From Synechococcus sp. JA-2-3B'a(2-13) (GTDB lineage: Bacteria; Cyanobacteriota; Cyanobacteriia; Thermostichales; Thermostichaceae), in contig NC_007776.1 in NCBI RefSeq assembly GCF_000013225.1, forward strand, positions 2,238,501 through 2,302,500: a stretch of DNA of 64,000 nucleotides, read 5' to 3'. This document shows positions 8,793 through 52,535 of the stretch, in pieces. The position numbers were made by a program, and so were the translations under genes. Under the pieces are notes generated by a model. That model made no database searches and was not told where the DNA came from. It saw only the letters and a list, made by a program, of their open reading frames with translations. Within the stretch, counting starts at the first letter, position 1. Each line of letters opens with the position of its first letter.

Positions 8793-8871
8793 CTCAGCTA
8801 GAAATCGCAGGAGCCCCGCACTGTACCCGTAGGGTCAGTGTCGGGAGGAATGCGGAAGTTATGATAGAACC

Positions 8872-10065
8872 ATGACCCAAGTCCTGACCGTCTCCTGCAA
8901 GCTCAAGGTGTCTCAGTCGCAAGCCGCAAAGTTGGATGCGACAACGGATGCCTTTGTGCAGGCGTTGAACTGGGTCAACCAAAACACACCAGAAAAAGTA
9001 GTCAACGCAGTCAAACTCCAGTCCCTTTGCTATTACCAGATTCGCGCTCGGTTTGGCTTGTCCAGTAACTTGACTCAGCAGGTCTGCAGACGGCTGGCCG
9101 GTGCCCGTAAAGTTGCCCGACAGAAAAACCGTCCGGTCAAAGCGTTCAAGAGAGGCTTTGCGACCTACGATGCACGTATCTTCTCGTTTCGCGAGAAAGA
9201 CTGGACAGTGTCGCTTGCCACGGTTGATGGAAGAGAACGCTTTGAACTAGCCATTGGCAACTACCAGCGTGGGATGCTGGCTGGTTCTAACCCCAAATCG
9301 GCCACCCTAGTCCAGCGGAAGGATGGCTCCTACTACATCCAGATTTGCGTAGAGAAAAACCCGCCCAAGCAACAAGATACCGACAAGGTGATCGGGGTGG
9401 ACTTGGGCAGGACGGATATCGCCCATACGTCAGAGGGGGACAACTGGAATGGACAGCAGTTGAACCGAATCCGAGACCACTACTCCAAGCTGAGGGCGGC
9501 ACTCCAACGCAAAGCCAGTAAGGGCACACGCAGTTCGCGGCGCAGATGCCGTCAACTGTTGCAACGGCTGTCTGGCAAGGAAAGACGCTTTCAGGCGTGG
9601 GTCAATCATCGAATCTCCAAAGCTATTGTCTCTAGGGCAAAGGCGACAAACAGCGCTCTTGCTCTGGAAGACTTGACAGGGATTCGGGAAAGGGTCAATC
9701 AACAGCCACGCAGCAAAGCCGAGCGGCGTAGGACCAACAGTTGGGCGTTCTACCAACTACGTCAGTTTCTGGAGTACAAGGCTCTGCGTGCGGGGGTTGC
9801 TCTGATTCTTGTGCCGCCTGCCTACACGTCGCAGACCTGCCACCGGTGTTTGCACATTCATCCCGACCCTGAGCAATCCTACCGCAGTGGGAAGCAGTTT
9901 AAGTGTGGACACTGTGGATGGGAAGGGGATGCGGATTTGAATGGTGCGAATGTGATTGCGCTTTTGGGGGCTGTCGTAAACCAGCCTAGAGGTTCGTGGT
10001 TGGCTTGCCAACTGCAGGGCTACCGAAAGCCCGCCCTGTACTGCGAAGCAGTCAGGGTCGGGTAG
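8872..10065 (+). CDS. tnpB: TnpB RNA-guided nuclease (IS1341-type)
   Basis: 397-aa TnpB, an RNA-guided DNA nuclease related to Cas12. RuvC residues are intact: D177 (IGVDLG), E266 (ALEDLTG) and the Asp pair D353/D355 in DADLNGAN. A zinc finger with C323, C326, C345 and C348 lies between the second and third. The protein begins MTQVLTVSCKLKVSQSQAAK; the last 30 residues are encoded by the structured right end of the element and may not be functional protein. A TATGAT -10-like box (8860-8865) precedes the ATG. It looks intact and could serve guide RNAs from the three short copies. It is only distantly similar to the tnpB at 38727-39932. Confidence 0.92.
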   Translation: MTQVLTVSCKLKVSQSQAAKLDATTDAFVQALNWVNQNTPEKVVNAVKLQSLCYYQIRARFGLSSNLTQQVCRRLAGARKVARQKNRPVKAFKRGFATYDARIFSFREKDWTVSLATVDGRERFELAIGNYQRGMLAGSNPKSATLVQRKDGSYYIQICVEKNPPKQQDTDKVIGVDLGRTDIAHTSEGDNWNGQQLNRIRDHYSKLRAALQRKASKGTRSSRRRCRQLLQRLSGKERRFQAWVNHRISKAIVSRAKATNSALALEDLTGIRERVNQQPRSKAERRRTNSWAFYQLRQFLEYKALRAGVALILVPPAYTSQTCHRCLHIHPDPEQSYRSGKQFKCGHCGWEGDADLNGANVIALLGAVVNQPRGSWLACQLQGYRKPALYCEAVRVG

Positions 10066-10070
10066 TTTAC
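9976..10070 (+). ncRNA. Candidate omega (guide) RNA scaffold, copy A
   Basis: The 3' end of the tnpB element aligns with the short copies from GTAAACC onward. It contains a GGGCT/AGCCC hairpin, then a longer stem pairing CCCTG-ACTGC with GCAGT-CAGGG around a GAA loop, and stops at GGGTAGTTTAC. In known TnpB systems the RNA continues into flanking DNA, which acts as the guide; here that would begin ATGGTTCCCGG at 10071. The 5' boundary of the RNA is not determined. Confidence 0.45.
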
Positions 10071-22651: not shown

Positions 22652-23521
22652 ATGTCGTCCATTCAACGAGAACCTCGCATTCTGTTGGGCCTGCGGGCCG
22701 ACCAATTTCGTCATCCCGTGGATCTGCAAGCCACCCGCTCTCTGCAGCAAGTGCCGGGGCTGGGCCTGCTGATTCAAAATTGGCTTGGCTCAACGGCAGG
22801 ACAGATATTTTATCTGGACAACATTGCTTCCAGTATCCAAATTAACGAGCATCAGTTGCCGGAAATTCATCAGCTTTTGGTGCAGGCCTGTCGCATCTTG
22901 GATCTGGAGGTGCCCCAGCTCTACGTGCGGCAGAACCCCACGCCCAATGCTTACACCTTTGCCATGCAGGGGAAAAAGCCCTTCATTGTCTTGCACAGCT
23001 CTCTGCTGGATCTGTTGGAGCCGCCGGAAATTCAGGCCGTGATCGCTCATGAGTTGGGCCACTTGAAGTGCAATCACGGGGTCTACTTGACGATGGCCAA
23101 CATTCTCATGCTCTCCACCAGCTTGCTCCCCTTCGGGGGGTTGTTTTATCAGGCGTTGCAGGATCAACTGATGCACTGGCTGCGGTGTGCCGAGTTTACC
23201 TGTGACCGGGCGGCGCTGTTGGTAGCCCAAGATGCCAAGACGGTGATCTCGGTGTTGATGAAATTGTGTGGGGGATCCCCGCAGTTGGCCTCCAAGCTGA
23301 ACGTGGACGCCTTTTTGGAGCAGGCCCGTACTTACGACGAGCTGGACGGGGATCTGTGGCAGATGGAGCTGAAGCAGATGCAAACGGTGGGGCGCACCCA
23401 TCCGCTGCCGGTGCTACGGGCCAGAGAAATCGAGCGTTGGTTCCGCAGCAACACCTATCAGCAGATCCTGGAGCTCCAGGGATTGGGCTCCGCACCGCGG
23501 ACGTCAACGGCTGCTTCGTAA
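22652..23521 (+). CDS. M48-family zinc metallopeptidase
   Basis: 289 aa from the ATG at 22652 (MSSIQREPRILLGLRADQFR). The zinc site HELGH (VIAHELGHLKCNHG) and the downstream Glu ligand (EFTCDRAALL) define an M48/Ste24-HtpX-type peptidase. A hydrophobic stretch (MANILMLSTSLLPFGGLFY) lies between them. The family cuts membrane or misfolded proteins. The last codons run into a 235-bp mobile element, and the stop codon TAA (23519-23521) is made by that element's right end, so the original C-terminus may have been slightly different. Confidence 0.88.
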   Translation: MSSIQREPRILLGLRADQFRHPVDLQATRSLQQVPGLGLLIQNWLGSTAGQIFYLDNIASSIQINEHQLPEIHQLLVQACRILDLEVPQLYVRQNPTPNAYTFAMQGKKPFIVLHSSLLDLLEPPEIQAVIAHELGHLKCNHGVYLTMANILMLSTSLLPFGGLFYQALQDQLMHWLRCAEFTCDRAALLVAQDAKTVISVLMKLCGGSPQLASKLNVDAFLEQARTYDELDGDLWQMELKQMQTVGRTHPLPVLRAREIERWFRSNTYQQILELQGLGSAPRTSTAAS

Positions 23522-23667
23522 ACTACCCGACTCCGACCGCTAAAGCAGTACAGAGCGGGCTTTTAGTAGCCCTGCAGTTGGCAAGCCAACCACGAGCCTC
23601 TGGGGTGGTTTACAGCACCCCCAATCGACCGTTACCAGTGCCTTAAACAACCGTTTCTGGTGTCCGC
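23518..23667 (-). ncRNA. Candidate omega (guide) RNA, copy B
   Basis: A TATAAT box on the minus strand (23674-23679) would start a transcript near 23667 that runs 150 nt to the right end. The terminal stem pairs CTCTG-ACTGC with GCGGT-CGGAG, with changes relative to copy A that keep the pairing. The guide would begin GAAGCAGCCGT, antisense to the end of the peptidase gene. Confidence 0.4.
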
Positions 23668-23752
23668 AGTACAATTATAACCATGGAGGCGGACTTTCCT
23701 CTCGACACTGATCCTACCGGTACAGCACGGGGCTCCTGCGATTTCTAGCTGA
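23518..23752 (-). mobile_element. Short tnpB-less element (family copy B)
   Basis: 235-bp relative of the tnpB element, reversed. The right end GTAAACTACCCGAC lies at 23518 and the left end (TTTCTAGCTGA) at 23752. It is the most diverged of the three short copies, with changes in the left end. It sits between the M48 peptidase gene, whose stop it supplies, and the PfkB kinase gene, whose ATG is 9 bp beyond it. Confidence 0.82.
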
Positions 23753-38726: not shown

Positions 38727-39932
38727 TTATGCAACGCTGAACAAAACAGAACTTTGCCCAGCATCGCTGCTTTCTTCCTGCTTCAGCGACCCATGACTGG
38801 CGGCAGAGTTCACCTCCACCGCCCCGCCAGAGGGATCTCCACAGGCGTTACTTCCCCGCGAGCTGCAGGTAGTTAGATACCACTGGGCTAGGTTGATGGC
38901 TGCATTCAAGTCGCGGTCTAGCTCCAGACCACAACACGGGCAGCGAAATACCCGCTCGCTGAGTGGCATCTTCTGTTTGTGGCCACACCCTGAACACAGT
39001 TGGCTGGACGGATAAAACCTATCCGCCACCACCACCTGACAGCCGTAGAGTTGGGCCTTGTACTCTAGCTGTCGCCGAAACTCGTAGAACCCACAGTCTG
39101 ACAGCGCTCCTGCCAACTTGCGGTTCTTAAGCAGGTTCTTCACCTGCAAGCCCTCAATCACCACCACCCGATACTTCTTGGCCAGGTAAGTCGTTAGCTT
39201 GTGCAGATTGTCTTGCCGAATGTCTGCCACCCGCTTGTGGGCCCTGCCTAACTGCACCACCGCCTTCTTACGGTTAGCGGATCCCTTCTGCTTGCGACTC
39301 AGCCGCCGTTGCAGTTTGGTCAGACGCCTCCTCGCCTTACGGTAGGGCTTTGGATTCTCGAATACTTCCCCGTCGGAGCAGGTGGCCAAGTGATGGATCC
39401 CTAAGTCCACTCCCACAACTTCCCCGGTCTTCTCCACTTGAGGCGCTGGAGCTTCATATTTGAAGGAGATGTACCAGTGTCCGGCGCGAAGACTGATGAC
39501 CACGTTCTTGGGTGTGGTCGCCGGAAGTAACTCTGCACAGCGCAGCCAACCGAAGATAGGCACCTTGATGCGGTCGCCAGAAATGCGGATGCTGCCTTCT
39601 AGGTAAAAGCTGTCTCGCACTCCCTTGCGTTTGAAGCGGGGGAACTTCCCCAACCCACCCCGCCAGCGCTTAAAGGCTTGCTCCAAGTTGCGTAATGCCT
39701 GCTGAGGAGCGCATTTGGAGACCTGGTAGTACCAGGGGTTTTCCTTCTTAACCTCGGCTACCAGGCGCTTGTGCAGGTCAATGGCGGTGGGGAGTTTCTG
39801 CCGGTTCTCCAGGGCTTGCCGACAGATGGCCAGGCCCCAGTTGTAGGCGTGACGGGCTACCCCAGCGTGCTGAGCGGCTAGGGTCTTCTGCCGGTTATTC
39901 AGCTCTAAGCGGGTGCGGAATCCAAGCAGCAT
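38727..39932 (-). CDS. tnpB: TnpB RNA-guided nuclease (second lineage)
   Basis: 401-aa TnpB with intact RuvC residues: D176 (VGVDLGIHHLA), E260 (VVVIEGLQVKNL) and the Asp pair in DRDLNAAINLA; zinc-finger Cys at 313, 316, 331 and 334. The C-terminal tail after residue 352 (NACGDPSGGAVEVNSAASHG) is typical where the gene runs into its element's right end, 15 bp from the cobQ stop. Its ATG (39932) touches the left end of a short element of the other family, inserted at 39933. No ribosome site remains upstream, so expression is doubtful. No tnpA nearby. Two GGATCC sites occur inside. Confidence 0.88.
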   Translation of the reverse strand: MLLGFRTRLELNNRQKTLAAQHAGVARHAYNWGLAICRQALENRQKLPTAIDLHKRLVAEVKKENPWYYQVSKCAPQQALRNLEQAFKRWRGGLGKFPRFKRKGVRDSFYLEGSIRISGDRIKVPIFGWLRCAELLPATTPKNVVISLRAGHWYISFKYEAPAPQVEKTGEVVGVDLGIHHLATCSDGEVFENPKPYRKARRRLTKLQRRLSRKQKGSANRKKAVVQLGRAHKRVADIRQDNLHKLTTYLAKKYRVVVIEGLQVKNLLKNRKLAGALSDCGFYEFRRQLEYKAQLYGCQVVVADRFYPSSQLCSGCGHKQKMPLSERVFRCPCCGLELDRDLNAAINLAQWYLTTCSSRGSNACGDPSGGAVEVNSAASHGSLKQEESSDAGQSSVLFSVA

Positions 39933-39992
39933 TCAGATAGAAATTGCAGGAGCCCCGTACGGTACCCGTAGGGTCAGTGTCGGGAGGAATGC

Positions 39993-39998
39993 TATAAT
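39993..39998 (+). promoter_or_regulatory. Extended -10 promoter element in short copy C
   Basis: TGCTATAAT: a perfect TATAAT with the extended TGn motif. The same sequence occurs in copy D. There is no good -35 hexamer 16-18 bp upstream. It would start a transcript near 40005 that runs to the right end of the element. Confidence 0.5.
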
Positions 39999-40004
39999 GG
40001 TACT

Positions 40005-40152
40005 GCGGGCACCAGAAACAGCTTTTAGGGCACTGGTAACGGTCGATTGGGGGTGCAGTAAACCACCCCAGAGGCTCGTGGTTGGCTTGCTAACTGCAGG
40101 GCTACTAAAAGCCCGCTCCGTACCGCCTAGCGGTTGGTGTCGGGTAGTTTAC
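40005..40152 (+). ncRNA. Candidate omega (guide) RNA, copy C
   Basis: About 148 nt from the predicted start to the right end. Hairpins visible: GGGCT/AGCCC around TACTAAA, and ACCGC/GCGGT around CTA. The guide would begin ATAGCCGCGGCC at 40153. Size and placement fit known TnpB guide RNAs; transcription is not shown by sequence. Confidence 0.42.
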
Positions 40153-50214: not shown

Positions 50215-50832
50215 AGATCTGTACCGTAAATTACGTTTACAGTCTATTAAACCCAGCCTCTCTCCCCACGTGTCGCTAGGACAGTTCCCAGCCTGTCACC
50301 CCATTCACCATCTTCCCCTTGCGGGGAAAAGGTAAGGATCAACACTATAAAATCTTGCGCTGGCAGAACCAGGGTGGTGATTGCTCGCCCCGGCAGATTG
50401 CGCACAAAACTTTACAATTTTGATCAAACCGGATCCCATATCTCCCATGGGGATCCCGGCTGTAAGCTTCATCTGAAGTTCCAGAAGGCCACGCAGGATC
50501 AGGACAAAGGCTCCTAGGGATTTTGTTTCACTTTTTCCATCTTCCCATTCGGCAACAATCTCTTCATCAAGTGGTGAAGTCTTGCCAAAAGTAAGCCAGG
50601 ATCAGCGTAGGGCTCCACAGGCATCTTTTCCCTCACCCTTAACCTCTCTTCCGATGAAAGAAATGGGGTCACGCCATCCTCGCAATAGGCAGCCATTGTC
50701 TTCGGCCCTGCCGACAAGGAGAAAAAGCAGGCGGGGATCCATAAGCCCATAAAGCAAACAGCTGCGGTGTTATCCACAGCTTGAGCAGAGTCCAGATCTG
50801 AGCAGCTCATCGTTTCTGGAGGTTGTGTATCG
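50215..50832. other. 618-bp gap without a recognised gene
   Basis: Region between the divergent acyl-activating enzyme and pcm genes. It contains a TTCCCC/GGGGAA hairpin near 50312-50328, GGATCC palindromes near 50431, 50452 and 50737, and A+T-rich patches that could hold promoters. No coding frame looked convincing. Confidence 0.4.
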
Positions 50833-52314: not shown

Positions 52315-52463
52315 GTAAACTACCCGACACCAACCGCTAGGCGGTACGGAGCGGGCTTTTAGTAGCCCTGCAGTTAGCAAGCCAACCACGAGCCTCTGGG
52401 GTGGTTTACTGCACCCCCAATCGACCGTTACCAGTGCCCTAAACAACCGTTTCTGGTGTCCGC
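52315..52463 (-). ncRNA. Candidate omega (guide) RNA, copy D
   Basis: About 149 nt from a predicted start near 52463 to the right end. Same hairpins as copy C. The guide would begin AGGTGCTGACATG, which covers the GDPD start codon. If the transcript continues it becomes the 5' leader of the GDPD mRNA. Confidence 0.42.
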
Positions 52464-52535
52464 AGTATTATTATAGCATTCCTCCCGACACCGAACCTAC
52501 GGGTACAGTGCGGGGCTCCTGCAATTTCTAGCTGA
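52315..52535 (-). mobile_element. Short tnpB-less element (family copy D)
   Basis: 221-bp element, reversed: right end GTAAACTACCCGAC at 52315, left end (TTTCTAGCTGA) at 52535. Nearly identical in the body to copy C. On the minus strand it carries TGCTATAAT (-10 at 52470-52475) and transcribes toward the GDPD gene, whose ATG is 10 bp past the right end. Confidence 0.87.

Follow-up and report, generated by a model that had tools for sequence, protein, structure and literature searches.

In IS608, the transposase TnpA recognizes subterminal palindromes, and each cleavage site goes with a short guide sequence, the left site C_L TTAC with the guide G_L AAAG and the right site C_R TCAA with the guide G_R GAAT (PMC5934647), while an unpaired T of the palindrome, T17, is held by the protein (PMC8266576). 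The elements studied here resemble IS608 and ISDra2 in having a hairpin near each end, with an unpaired T in the stem and a foot guide that matches the cleavage site, and in being inserted 3' of a fixed tetranucleotide without duplication of the target. They differ in their sites, the left one being TCAG or TCAC and the right one TTAC, and in that most copies have tnpB only or neither gene.

A second reader of such hairpins acts on RNA. In the omegaRNA of ISDra2, base pairing joins the loop of stem 1 to the 3' end, and the 3' stem, stem 4, which has a UUUA loop, contacts the WED domain of TnpB (PMC10097598). Among diverse TnpB omegaRNAs (also called reRNAs), a subterminal 3' hairpin is the single common feature, for which TnpA and TnpB were both named as readers (Nety et al., 2023, PMC10278001). 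The right ends examined here are like these RNAs, in that the stem-1 loop pairs to the 3' end, the subterminal 3' hairpin adjoins the guide, and the scaffold of a full copy overlaps the 3' end of tnpB. By contrast, the RNA predicted for the short copies is unattached to tnpB and has a promoter box and a 5' module of its own. Because the subterminal 3' hairpin had already been described (PMC10278001), the core point of a first-pass annotation of this DNA, that the terminal stem is a selected structure, is known in kind.

Miniature or palindrome-associated IS605-type elements (MITE/PATE) are short, gene-less and repeated, with both transposase-recognized ends, and ISSoc2-derived miniature elements were reported in Synechococcus (Nelson et al., 2012, as cited in PMC10969869). 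The short copies are of this kind, being dispersed as similar copies, without a transposase gene and with both ends present, but unlike such elements they carry a complete and conserved guide-RNA scaffold. Guide RNAs encoded apart from their nuclease are reportedly also known for IscB, whose trans-encoded omegaRNAs Altae-Tran and colleagues are said to have described in 2021; here, however, the nuclease is of the TnpB type and the candidate guide-RNA gene lies inside a mobile element.

From the comparisons below, we consider it quite likely that the terminal hairpin serves an IS200/IS605-type element as its right imperfect palindrome (IP_R) and, in transcribed form, a TnpB guide RNA as its 3' stem, and that the short copies constitute mobile genes for such RNAs.

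Copies of the element and their boundaries

The window analyzed is a 64-kb stretch of the source genome, which is a single contig of 3,046,682 bases and was compared with a congener of 2,932,766 bases. The flagged stretch has three further matches within the window. Copy A (8798–10070, + strand) is a full-length element with tnpB (8872–10065), a guide-RNA scaffold (9964–10070) that overlaps the tnpB 3' end, and a terminal hairpin (10030–10062). The flagged copy C (39937–40152, + strand) is a tnpB-less IS200/IS605-type element of 216 bp that carries the putative guide-RNA gene, and copies B (23518–23748, − strand) and D (52315–52531, − strand) are likewise short and without tnpB. In the whole source genome the stretch matches at least 40 places (40 of 122 candidates were scored), and 13 copies are tnpB-less; genome G476 has ten or more of a related type. 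A protein search found tnpB in 38 copies at 84–100% identity and in seven at 54%, plus traces in short copies. The TnpB of copy A matches the Pfam families Cas12f1-like TNB and OrfB_IS605, and its nearest solved chains are annotated as OrfB/transposase or Cas12f. Plasmids and viral contigs gave no match to the element.

A second, unrelated type of tnpB, also with an OrfB_IS605 match, lies at 38727–39932 on the − strand of the window, and its start codon ends exactly where the TCAG target of copy C begins. A link between copy C and this gene was rejected, as its product is only about 29% identical to the family TnpB and copy C stands beside its start codon. Elsewhere in the window, positions 50307–50343 match the Rfam direct repeat CRISPR-DR57.

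The boundaries follow one layout, TCAG, then the element, then GTTTAC, with variable flanks outside. In copy C, TCAG (39933–39936, + strand), the target and left cleavage site C_L, is retained in the flank outside the element; it precedes the left end in family copies, and TCAC precedes all ten G476 copies listed. Empty sites in the congener define the insertion. The joined flanks of copy B correspond to an uninterrupted site there (220/220 positions, 93%, TCAG kept), and those of copy D to one matched across the joint at 84%. Congener copies of the tnpB adjacent to copy C have the site without the insertion, with a loose alignment at the joint, and the site of copy A is occupied by a different sequence of roughly 290 bp. 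Because the empty sites are continuous in the congener, insertion took place 3' of TCAG without target duplication, and insertion 3' of a fixed short site with an unduplicated target (empty sites of B and D) is as in IS200/IS605 elements.

The predicted guide-RNA scaffold and the short copies

The scaffold consists of stem 1 (H1, GGGGTG/CACCCC, 40050–40069, + strand) with the loop GTAAAC (40058–40063), stem H2 (40073–40103, + strand) and H3, the terminal one. The H1 loop is complementary to GTTTAC (40147–40152, + strand), which is the 3' end of the element, contains the right cleavage site TTAC and would form the pseudoknot with the loop. Both H1 and H2 show covariation, and the GTAAAC/GTTTAC pseudoknot covaries across cyanobacteria with four perfect letter sets, 104 of 20,000 shuffles of the nine distinct combinations being as good. 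Stem 1, the pseudoknot between its loop and the 3' end, and the 3' stem are all found when the scaffold is compared with the ISDra2 omegaRNA (PMC10097598), and in copy A and the family right ends the scaffold at the tnpB 3' end stops at the element boundary, so that the flank would serve as the guide. Across an alignment of 13 copies that lack tnpB, pairing is 100% in H1 and H2, where both partners have changed at three pairs, as against 88% in the terminal helix. Selection at the RNA level is better shown by H1, H2 and the pseudoknot than by the terminal stem.

What sets the short copies apart lies upstream. A TATAAT −10 box (39993–39998, + strand, within TGCTATAAT) stands at a fixed spacing before a conserved 5' RNA module, GCGG..ACCAG..CTGGT..GGTCGA (40005–40046, + strand), at the predicted transcript start. 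In 13/13 short copies TATAAT (TATAAC in one) is found about 6 nt upstream of GCGG[AG]CACCAG, in several different upstream contexts, and box plus module occur three times in the window vs. 0 expected. The module was not found in the tnpB elements examined, and Rfam, at gathering and at permissive thresholds, returned nothing for the short-copy RNA.

A covariance model of the short-copy RNA was searched in 291 genomes of the class, and the copy numbers are lower bounds because the ten best candidates per genome were scored. Genome G476, from another family, has at least 10 near-identical copies, whose box and core are those of the source genome but whose end hairpins are not. Between a copy from the source genome and those of G476, the RNA core is identical at 102–103 of 104 positions (98–99%), as against 52–62% for the left part and 60–65% for the terminal hairpin part, and the TnpBs of G476 are 58–63% identical to that of copy A. 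Two related genomes (G026 and G078) have one copy each beside accD (L181 1375–1731 and the matching part of L182), with no difference over about 350 bp although the flanking intergenic DNA just downstream differs widely, and neither has a TnpB of the copy A family at E 1e-40. It is possible that this copy is a settled or domesticated guide RNA. A Limnothrix record shows the same accD-side pattern.

The alternative that survives best is that the short copies are nothing more than miniature elements, retained as substrates of TnpA, with the guide-RNA part a relic. Both of their ends are indeed complete and the family would move by TnpA-type ends, and recent spread from one ancestor could explain part of the conservation of core, box and module. 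However, a relic is not expected to have H1 and H2 better kept than the terminal stem in copies without tnpB, to have the promoter box and 5' module fixed, or to have a core that is 98–99% conserved between families whose ends differ, and we regard this explanation as unlikely, though one to be taken seriously. To judge from these sequence patterns, a mobile guide-RNA gene with its own promoter and no nuclease would seem to be a novel variant, whereas the hairpin itself is known in kind.

Hairpins at the two ends and their paired changes

Subterminal imperfect palindromes, as known from IS200/IS605 elements, are present at both ends. In copy C, the left guide G_L GAGC (39950–39953, + strand) is followed by the left palindrome IP_L (39954–39984, + strand), which has the architecture of the right one and is mismatched in this copy. 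On the right, the guide G_R AAAG (40108–40111, + strand) is followed by the terminal hairpin (40112–40144, + strand), both IP_R and H3, with bulged Ts at 40121 and 40140 and a mismatch T40117·T40138. Three left-end hairpins of the source genome, CCCG-CACTG-T-ACCC-GTA-GGGT-CAGTG-T-CGGG, CCCG-CCCTC-T-GTCC-GTA-GGAC-GAGGG-T-CGGG and CCCG-CACCA-T-AGCC-GCA-GGCT-TGGTG-T-CGGG, have one common dot-bracket structure, bulged Ts included, with different letters. When distant genera were searched automatically for hairpins at the left end, most of those returned were unrelated, and only genome G449 gave a usable one (CCCG-CACTC-T-GGC-AAG-GCC-GAGTG).

The foot guides correspond to the cleavage sites by a rule that we derived from the two IS608 pairs (guide 1 to site 2, guide 2 to site 1, guide 4 to site 4), by which GAGC pairs with TCAG and AAAG with TTAC in copy C. 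The rule holds 3/3 at left ends of four types (TCAG/GAGC, TCAC/GAGG, TCAC/GAAG) and 3/3 for TTAC/AAAG at 63 right-end scaffolds; as exceptions, 11 right-end scaffolds had no detected foot with G·T pairs disallowed, and in about 12 the guide fitted its site only in part or failed to, in several cases because the foot was misplaced. By eye it also fits the tnpA-bearing element L080 (TTAG/AAGC and TCAC/GAAG), whose ends are not independently fixed, and L109 (TGAC/CAAG). At the right end of L109, in genome G072, the site TGAC, the foot guide CAAG and the pseudoknot loop GTCAAT have changed together, so that one base is matched by the DNA guide and the RNA pseudoknot alike.

The source genome has one intact Y1 tnpA, and the left hairpin of its element starts exactly like the left end of two tnpB copies; both hairpins of this only intact tnpA element are interrupted by inserted sequence, which leaves its activity here in doubt. 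The hairpins of this tnpA-bearing element (L080 844–912 and 2591–2645), and those of some tnpB elements (L070, L098), contain insertions of short palindromic repeats.

Since the left end has the same fold and lies outside the guide RNA, TnpA is the reader that the two ends would have in common, and the shared architecture, together with the code between cleavage site and guide, is primarily a sign of a DNA hairpin that TnpA recognizes. This bears on the possibility that the stem is kept for guide-RNA folding only, the DNA hairpin having no role. The covariation of H1, H2 and the pseudoknot is what RNA folding would give, and the 3' stem of ISDra2 does contact TnpB (PMC10097598), but RNA folding accounts neither for the same architecture with bulged Ts at the left end nor for a foot-guide code that is meaningful solely for single-strand DNA chemistry, and we hold this reading to be improbable. 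The first-pass annotation took the terminal stem as evidence of a conserved RNA fold; that a structure is selected is borne out, whereas the terminal stem by itself is no proof of RNA, given the left end.

The letters of the right stem are as that annotation gave them, except that its dash conceals the bulged T. Copy A has CCCTG-T-ACTGC/GCAGT-CAGGG, perfect apart from the bulge, and copy B has CTCTG-T-ACTGC/GCGGT-CGGAG, which pairs with two T·G wobbles. In copies C and D, whose terminal hairpins are identical, the upper stem ACCGC/GCGGT is perfect, whereas the lower stem CTCCG/TGGTG has a T·T mismatch and a G·T wobble, and pairing in every copy, as had been claimed, applies to A, B and the upper 5 bp of C and D but not to the lower stem of the latter two. 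The changes named, C-G to T-A and T-A to C-G, are real, with a T·G intermediate in copy B.

For the family as a whole, 61 distinct right ends from the genus were aligned with MAFFT, seven rearranged or differently ended rows being left out, and pairing was compared with a null in which changes were redistributed, in 2000 simulations, on a tree built without the hairpin columns. The lower stem is 95.7% paired vs. 66.7 ± 7.7% expected (0/2000), with 6 concerted double changes vs. 1.7 expected (4/2000), and the upper stem is 91.2% paired vs. 59.8% expected (0/2000). All helices together have 12 double changes vs. 3.3 expected (0/2000), and the signal is gone, with zero double changes, when the partner is slid by 1–3 columns (n = 61 throughout). 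The second pair of the lower stem shows all four Watson-Crick types (C-G 15, T-A 27, A-T 9, G-C 4). The significant single covarying pairs for which the first-pass annotation had looked to an R-scape-type check did not appear: in an R-scape-like test of all pairs (APC-corrected G, about 5,300 column pairs), no pair reached E < 0.05, the best two stem pairs having E of about 5 and 9. Too few independent lineages are available for single-pair calls, and therefore the helix- and branch-level tests, which were passed, were used. Across the family the terminal stem stays paired through genuine compensatory changes, and in this the annotation was largely right. Among short copies alone, H1 (10/2000) and H2b (25/2000) are significantly maintained whereas pairing of the lower stem is not (400/2000); in the short subfamily to which copy C belongs, no helix is maintained less well than the terminal lower stem.

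Paired changes may also arise without selection, if replication copies one arm of a quasi-palindrome onto the other. Hairpin tips are found in both orientations, on the left as TACTTCAGTG and CACTGAAGTA (L213 vs. L207) and on the right as CTTCAG and CTGAAG (L246 vs. L242), which indicates that tip inversion or template switching occurs at these palindromes, and it may be the source of some paired changes. However, such copying would erase mismatches and bulges, yet the bulged Ts persist, wobble intermediates are present, and covariation extends to the foot guides and to the pseudoknot, whose partners are not arms of one hairpin; as an account of the pattern it is very improbable. Constraint from the tnpB reading frame was rejected as next to impossible, since, although the hairpin of copy A lies inside that frame, the TnpB match ends ahead of the hairpin at residue 382 in many full copies, the matching frame of the short copies has stops, non-coding copies contradict it, complementary changes are not predicted by it, and the C-terminal domain of ISDra2 TnpB is dispensable for cleavage (PMC10097598). 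Simple decay of a dead repeat, which the first-pass annotation had already doubted, was rejected by the family-wide pairing above the tree-based null.

A proposed role for the hairpin and the short copies

Our preferred reading is that one hairpin is read twice, as single-stranded DNA by TnpA and as RNA by TnpB, either of which would leave compensatory changes in it. Copy C would belong to a tnpB-less group which, with its own promoter box and fixed 5' RNA module, acts as a mobile guide-RNA gene. RNA would be made from the short copies, which the TnpA of another element would move in trans. This RNA would load in trans into the TnpB of full-length copies, and the loaded TnpB might cut the emptied site, TCAG plus the 3' flank, favoring retention of the short element.

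More tentatively, the short elements could be selfish, promoter-driven omegaRNA genes, which borrow TnpA for movement and TnpB for cleavage of the sites they have vacated, so that they are kept or copied, and which are exchanged between cyanobacterial families with their transposase-specific ends swapped, while the accD-side copy in the two related genomes may have become a host guide RNA. We think this extension somewhat less than even in its chances.

The hairpin is a clear example from nature of a single sequence apparently meeting the structural demands of both DNA (TnpA) and RNA (TnpB), in an element whose 3' letters also belong both to the cleavage site and to the pseudoknot. Should the copies without a nuclease gene produce functional guide RNAs, a guide RNA would suffice as the selfish unit, which is a possible step towards Cas12-type systems whose guides are encoded in trans. 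Given the dozens of tnpB copies in the genome, the action of TnpB in trans for non-autonomous copies would then become directly testable.
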